From assembly GCA_021811435.1 (NCBI GenBank), contig JAJZOR010000006.1, positions 1 to 64,000 of the forward strand: a stretch of 64,000 nucleotides of DNA. The letters run 5' to 3'. The notes below the pieces were generated by a model that made no database searches, was not told the origin of the DNA, and was given only the letters and a program-made list of their open reading frames with translations. Positions 50,221 to 50,851 of the stretch are shown here, one piece after another. A program made the translations under genes and the position numbers. The stretch is from Microcaldota archaeon. Its GTDB lineage: Archaea; Micrarchaeota; Micrarchaeia; Micrarchaeales; Micrarchaeaceae. The stretch's first letter is position 1. Each line of letters begins with the position of its first letter.

Positions 50221-50342
50221 CGCCGGGGGTGGGAATTGAACCCACGAAAGCCATTTCTGGCTAAACAGCTTAGCAGGCTGCCGCCCTTTAGTGGACATCC
50301 AGCAGGGCGTCCGCCAAAAGCCTACCACTAGGCGACCCCGGC
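50221..50342 (-). tRNA. tRNA-Ser(GCT) with an extra intron-like segment
   Basis: The minus strand gives acceptor GCCGGGG pairing with CCCCGGC and discriminator G; a 3-bp D stem GCC/GGC with loop TAGTGGTA; anticodon stem GCAGC/GCTGT with loop CTGCTAA (anticodon GCT at 50274-50272); a long variable arm (AGCC...GGCT); and T arm GTGGGTTCAATTCCCAC. This is a serine tRNA for AGC/AGT codons. Between the D stem and the anticodon stem there is an unexpected 37-base segment (50283-50319). Without it the mature RNA would be 85 bases, normal for Ser. It is most likely a non-canonical tRNA intron. Confidence 0.9.
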
Positions 50343-50390
50343 ACGTGAACGCTAATAGTTAACCTTAAAGCAATAAAAGCTTATTCGATG

Positions 50391-50650
50391 TGGCAGAGGC
50401 CGACCTTGCACTGCAAGGCGCCCCGAAGTAGACTGCACCTCTGCTCGGCCCTGTATCCTAAGAGCATAGCCTAAATATGCTTAAGGTTGCTCCTTCCGGC
50501 CTGGCCTGGTTCACATACCAAACTATCACCTAGGGCAAGGCGTCTACGCTTCGATGCAGGCTCCGAAAAGCCCTGCAGCACTCAGCCGGCACTGGCCCGC
50601 CTAAAGGGATTTGCGAGCGGGAAACCCTTAGCTTCCCGGCCCATCTGCCA
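50391..50650 (-). ncRNA. Signal recognition particle 7S RNA
   Basis: About 260 bases on the minus strand form the archaeal SRP RNA. The SRP54-binding apical helix 8 is at 50516-50485 and reads GTGAACCAGGCCAGGCCGG then AAGGAGCAAC, including the universally conserved GNAR-type and AGCA loops. The ends TGGCAGA (50650-50644) and TCTGCCA (50397-50391) pair to close the molecule (helix 1/5). A CTTTTTAAA promoter box lies about 25-35 bases before the 5' end. It ends about 50 bases upstream of the tRNA-Ser gene on the same strand. Confidence 0.93.
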
Positions 50651-50851
50651 CAGCAGTATTATGCACAGACAGTTTAAAAAGCTTGTTCAGGGATGCACAG
50701 CCTGCAGGCGCTGTGGTTTCTAACCGTGGTTTTGCAGTGTGCCAAGCGAGCGCAGAAGACATGCAGCAGGTGCGCGTGAAAAGGCTGGCAGCTTTGGATC
50801 TAGGACACAGTGGGTCGCGATGTTGCAATAAGAAATAAATAGCCGTGGCAA

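Follow-up and report, generated by a model that had tools for sequence, protein, structure and literature searches.

A non-canonical intron in the D loop of a tRNA-Ser(GCT) gene of a Micrarchaeota archaeon

The window, a 64,000-nucleotide stretch of a contig from a Micrarchaeota archaeon, contains a tRNA-Ser(GCT) gene interrupted by extra bases. What these bases are, where they begin and end, and whether they would be removed from the transcript are the questions raised by this locus. The joint reading favoured here, with a probability of about 0.95 that takes in the splicing itself, is that they form an archaeal tRNA intron that is spliced by proteins and interrupts the D loop at the non-canonical site 20/21.

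The gene and the position of the extra bases

The gene for pre-tRNA-Ser(GCT) occupies 122 nt on the minus strand (50221 to 50342; read from 50342 down to 50221 its sequence is GCCGGGGTCGCCTAGTGGTAGGCTTTTGGCGGACGCCCTGCTGGATGTCCACTAAAGGGCGGCAGCCTGCTAAGCTGTTTAGCCAGAAATGGCTTTCGTGGGTTCAATTCCCACCCCCGGCG). Its acceptor, anticodon, variable and T arms are all intact, and the preliminary description was right in seeing here a tRNA-Ser(GCT) with all arms that contains extra bases. The anticodon GCT lies at 50272 to 50274, minus strand, within an intact anticodon loop (CTGCTAA), so that no intron is present at the canonical 37/38 site; a site other than 37/38 had also been proposed from the start. Only one tRNA with CTGCTAA was found in the assembly (1.095 Mb, 25 contigs, 93% complete). 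Neither a second tRNA-Ser(GCT) nor the intact intron-less copy that would have spoken against an intron was found there, and tRNA-Ser(GCU) is the only tRNA found in the genome for the codons AGC and AGU.

Automatic annotation handles this gene poorly. ARAGORN in plain mode calls no tRNA at 50221–50342, while its intron mode reports a tRNA-Ala with an intron, a misreading of the same gene. In the whole-genome tRNA search the score is 23 bits, under the cut-off, and Rfam gives only a weak tRNA-like match to the 3′ part of the gene. A tRNA-Sec match (50221–50304), under the gathering score, is accounted for by the same 3′ part, and a weak Plastid-ycf2 match on the plus strand is the T arm read on the opposite strand. 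Upstream on the same strand lies an archaeal SRP RNA (Rfam RF01857, 98.7 bits, 50390–50651, minus strand), which ends 47 nt before the 5′ end of the tRNA; the two may be co-transcribed.

The position of the insertion can be read from relatives. A pattern made of the anticodon-to-T-arm part of the gene matched 78 of the 301 genomes of the phylum. Sixty D regions were read, from the 60 fetched of these 78 genomes together with the window's gene and with one match (L111) excluded as a chance match that is no tRNA. An insertion is present in 27 of them and none in 33. Intron-less orthologues, including one from the window's own genus (L054), have the D region GCCTAGTGGTAGGGCGGCAGC, which is the exact product of a splice at 20/21; the predicted spliced D region itself occurs exactly in eight of these 33 genes, L054 among them. 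Intron-less genes, L054 again among them, read TCGCCTAGTGGTAGGGCGGCAGC, and the window's gene without 50288–50323 gives exactly TCGCCTAGTGGTAGGGCGGCAGC. A second pattern search of the same 301 genomes added more intron-bearing cases and dozens more intron-less ones with the identical junction. By this comparison the insertion is placed as a 36-nt intron in the D loop, between tRNA positions 20 and 21.

The 5′ exon (tRNA positions 1–20, GCCGGGGTCGCCTAGTGGT) thus lies at 50324 to 50342, minus strand, and is identical to the first 19 nt of L054. The intron, AGGCTTTTGGCGGACGCCCTGCTGGATGTCCACTAA, lies at 50288 to 50323, minus strand, and is missing from the intron-less orthologues. The 3′ exon (positions 21–73) lies at 50221 to 50287, minus strand, as defined by the intron-less orthologues and by the cloverleaf formed after splicing. 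Removal of the intron restores a canonical tRNA of the same form as the intron-less orthologues. The splice points, which had seemed ambiguous by eye, are unambiguous because relatives can be compared.

The extra segment of the preliminary description is therefore real, but it is 36 nt at 50288–50323 and not 37 nt at 50283–50319. The latter interval includes five bases of the exon, A21 to C25 (50283–50287), and omits the first four intron bases (50320–50323); the D arm that went with it had a false 3′ strand, made of the intron bases GGC. Its removal gives GGTAGGCGGC, which is found in no intron-less relative. The proposed location, between the D arm and the anticodon stem, gives way to the D loop on the evidence of both the orthologues and the bulge-helix-bulge geometry. 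An intron of 37 nt at 25/26 or 26/27, leaving a D stem of 3 bp, would yield an 85-nt product that ARAGORN also accepts as tRNA-Ser(GCT). That product, TAGTGGTAGGCGGCAGC, occurs in 0 of the 33 intron-less orthologues and has no match in the second search; these genes read GGTAGGGCGG or close variants. No cut phase beyond 20/21 gives a strict splice motif in any of 28 introns, and this placement is very improbable.

The bulge-helix-bulge motif

In the transcript the 20/21 intron would lengthen the D stem into a strict bulge-helix-bulge, in which a 3-nt bulge, a 4-bp helix and a second 3-nt bulge lie between an outer and an inner helix. The outer helix would be the D stem itself, positions 10–13 with 22–25. 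Its 5′ strand (G10–T13) lies at 50330 to 50333 and its 3′ strand (G22–C25), counted earlier as part of the insert, at 50283 to 50286, both on the minus strand, as are all the elements that follow. The central helix would pair A14, G15, U16 and G18 (50326 to 50329) with CACU, which lies close to the intron's 3′ end (CACT in the gene, 50290 to 50293). The 5′ bulge is G19 U20/A(+1) (50323 to 50325), with the predicted cut after U20, and the 3′ bulge is AA/A21 (50287 to 50289), with the predicted cut before A21; each cut thus falls after the second nucleotide of its bulge. The inner helix, formed inside the intron by GGC (+2 to +4, 50320 to 50322) with GTC (50294 to 50296), has 3 bp in the window's species, one of them G-U. 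The central helix is contained in the complementarity of TAGTGG to CCACTA, which had been picked out correctly from the sequence. The other complementarities noted with it, GGAC/GTCC and GCCC/GGGC, exist as well, but they cross each other and the motif does not need them.

Folding of the precursor gives a minimum free energy of -60.7 kcal/mol, against -58.8 kcal/mol with the bulge-helix-bulge constrained, and all arms are kept. In the window's RNA the unconstrained fold is therefore lower by 1.9 kcal/mol, and G19 can compete with G(+2) for the same C, so that for this species the prediction does not single out the strict register as the best fold. The 4-bp register is favoured over a 5-bp one because the latter would leave an extra A in the product, as judged against the relatives.

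Conservation among relatives points to the same structure. The 20/21 geometry is shared by 28 distinct introns of 15–36 nt, which come from three families and at least 17 genera. In all 28 distinct intron-bearing D regions the D stem serves as the outer helix when the cut is at 20/21, and at least three of the four central pairs (A14 G15 N16 G18 with the intron 3′ end) are formed. The 3′ bulge is AAA in 28 of 28. A fully strict motif, in which the four central pairs all form and the inner helix has at least 2 bp, is found in 20 of the 28 introns, compared with 0.05 expected after intron shuffling, a figure that gives no formal probability since the 28 sequences are related. When the cut is shifted by -2 to +4 from 20/21, the number of strict motifs among the 28 introns falls to 0. 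Pairs 15 and 18 form in all of them. Pair 16 takes three Watson-Crick forms: most introns have T-A, those of the TAGAGG lineages A-T and that of the TAGCGG lineage (L057) C-G. Since this pair changes form from lineage to lineage, the intron follows the exon, and this covariation is the best evidence that the predicted structure is used. One species (L106) has a broken pair 16, and six others have A-G or A-C as pair 14.

The same observations bear on two further explanations. A decayed or non-functional copy carrying a chance insertion would explain why ARAGORN misses the gene in plain mode and why its Rfam tRNA score is low. Such a copy is hard to reconcile with a 93%-complete genome in which no other tRNA-Ser(GCT) was found, with exons that match those of intron-less relatives and with a motif conserved, with covariation, over three families, and it is given very little credence. 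That the mature tRNA keeps the insert as a longer D arm, a reading suggested by the folding of the insert as a continuous extension of the D stem, is the least probable of all: the length of the insert ranges from 15 to 36 nt, its sequence varies freely beyond the splice motif, and it is absent, with a precise junction, from close relatives.

Splicing enzymes and other tRNA loci of the genome

The preliminary description called for a search for an epsilon-2 endonuclease gene, and one is present as a single ORF of 395 aa (G000:C17:133150-134334). The protein aligns end to end with the ARMAN-2 (Ca. Micrarchaeum acidiphilum) endonuclease (PDB 4FZ2, 9W2K), with 64% identity over 385 aa. The alignment with 4FZ2 and two PF01974 stretches indicate an alphaN-alpha-betaC architecture. 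In the ARMAN-2 enzyme the catalytic residues are Y236, H251 and K282, and the loop residues are Y160 and K161 (PMC12397907). Their equivalents here are Y244, H259 and K290 and, for the ARMAN-specific loop Tyr-Lys, Y168 and K169. While differing in sequence, the two enzymes therefore share architecture, catalytic triad and ARMAN-specific loop residues, and these features assign the endonuclease of this genome to the three-unit, epsilon-2 type. Its named relatives are from Micrarchaeota MAGs, including Ca. Micrarchaeum sp. A_DKE. A gene for the RtcB ligase is also present.

By analogy with established archaeal tRNA splicing, the epsilon-2 enzyme would cut the tRNA-Ser(GCU) precursor at both bulges, behind the second nucleotide of each, and the exons would be ligated by RtcB. 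The D arm would then read GGTAGGGCGGC across the 20/21 junction, and the product would be a normal tRNA-Ser(GCU) whose D stem has 4 bp and whose D loop has 7 nt. The boundaries are set by intron-less relatives, the motif is conserved and covarying, and the genes for both enzymes are present; the precursor is presumably expressed, cleaved and ligated. The suggestion of a non-canonical archaeal tRNA intron in an ARMAN-lineage (Micrarchaeota) genome with a three-unit endonuclease is thereby supported.

Other tRNA loci of the genome also have unusual features. Interruptions of the T loop after TTCAAA (59/60) are apparent in four other tRNAs: L038 (Arg TCT), L039 (Arg TCG), L048 and L051 (Leu CAA). 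Two of them, L038 (27 nt) and L039 (16 nt), have a strict bulge-helix-bulge. A second D-loop insertion, of about 23 nt, is present in tRNA-Leu(TAA) (L045), where the strict-motif script found no motif with all four central pairs. About nine loci are truncated 3′ tRNA pieces (L040, L041, L042/L043, L044, L046, L047, L050, L052 and L053), several of which read in frame after an ATG (MKLEKDDK.., MKLGNDAR..). Of the eight tyrosine-integrase genes of the genome, seven are located downstream of a tRNA or tRNA piece, at most about 300 bases away. The pieces and integrases are likely to come from elements that inserted at tRNA genes and whose attachment site lies within the start of the integrase. At L042/L043, the end of contig C8 and the start of contig C10 share about 125 identical bases, counted inward and extending through a tRNA-Lys piece, beyond which they differ; this is a repeat-caused assembly break.

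Distribution and meaning

The 20/21 intron is spread over three families (f1, f2 and f15), in which at least 17 genera carry it, and many other genera are without it. Four genera (g1, g15, g26 and g42) hold both states, and one genome (G262) carries a 17-nt version. On the endonuclease tree of 61 genomes the intron state changes at least 13 times, a count from one gene and a quick search, with many open forks, that cannot separate gain from loss. Exact loss is the simplest reading within the window's genus, because the intron-less G238 lies nested among intron-bearing members. It is conceivable, though doubtful, that in Micrarchaeota introns have been repeatedly gained as well as lost at the 20/21 site in the D loop of tRNA-Ser(GCU), re-inserting at the same place because half of the splice motif is fixed by the conserved D loop.

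Position 20/21 is among the known sites of non-canonical archaeal tRNA introns (PMC4090602), and D-loop or D-arm introns are also mentioned in PMC6379350 and PMC12397907. The known non-canonical introns share with the present one the position, the strict hBHBh′ motif and protein splicing, here predicted; they are best documented in Crenarchaeota and Nanoarchaeota, whereas the present set is from Micrarchaeota. The type I permuted tRNAs of Cyanidioschyzon merolae have the same D-loop junction at 20/21 (PMC3978253), but their gene order is permuted, while the exons of the present gene are collinear. The class of intron is thus already known, and that of tRNA-Ser(GCT) is a well-formed example, real and ordinary in kind. 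No description of this tRNA-Ser(GCU) intron in Micrarchaeota was found in the literature covered, which excludes Fujishima et al. 2011 on ARMAN tRNAs, and no paper on non-canonical tRNA introns in DPANN turned up in a literature search.

In such genomes the sole serine tRNA that decodes AGY can escape a gene finder. The family-wide set forms a natural series at one fixed site, with introns of 15 to 36 nt and both states in four genera, and therefore makes intron gain, intron loss and minimal intron length testable in a lineage with the least-studied type of endonuclease.
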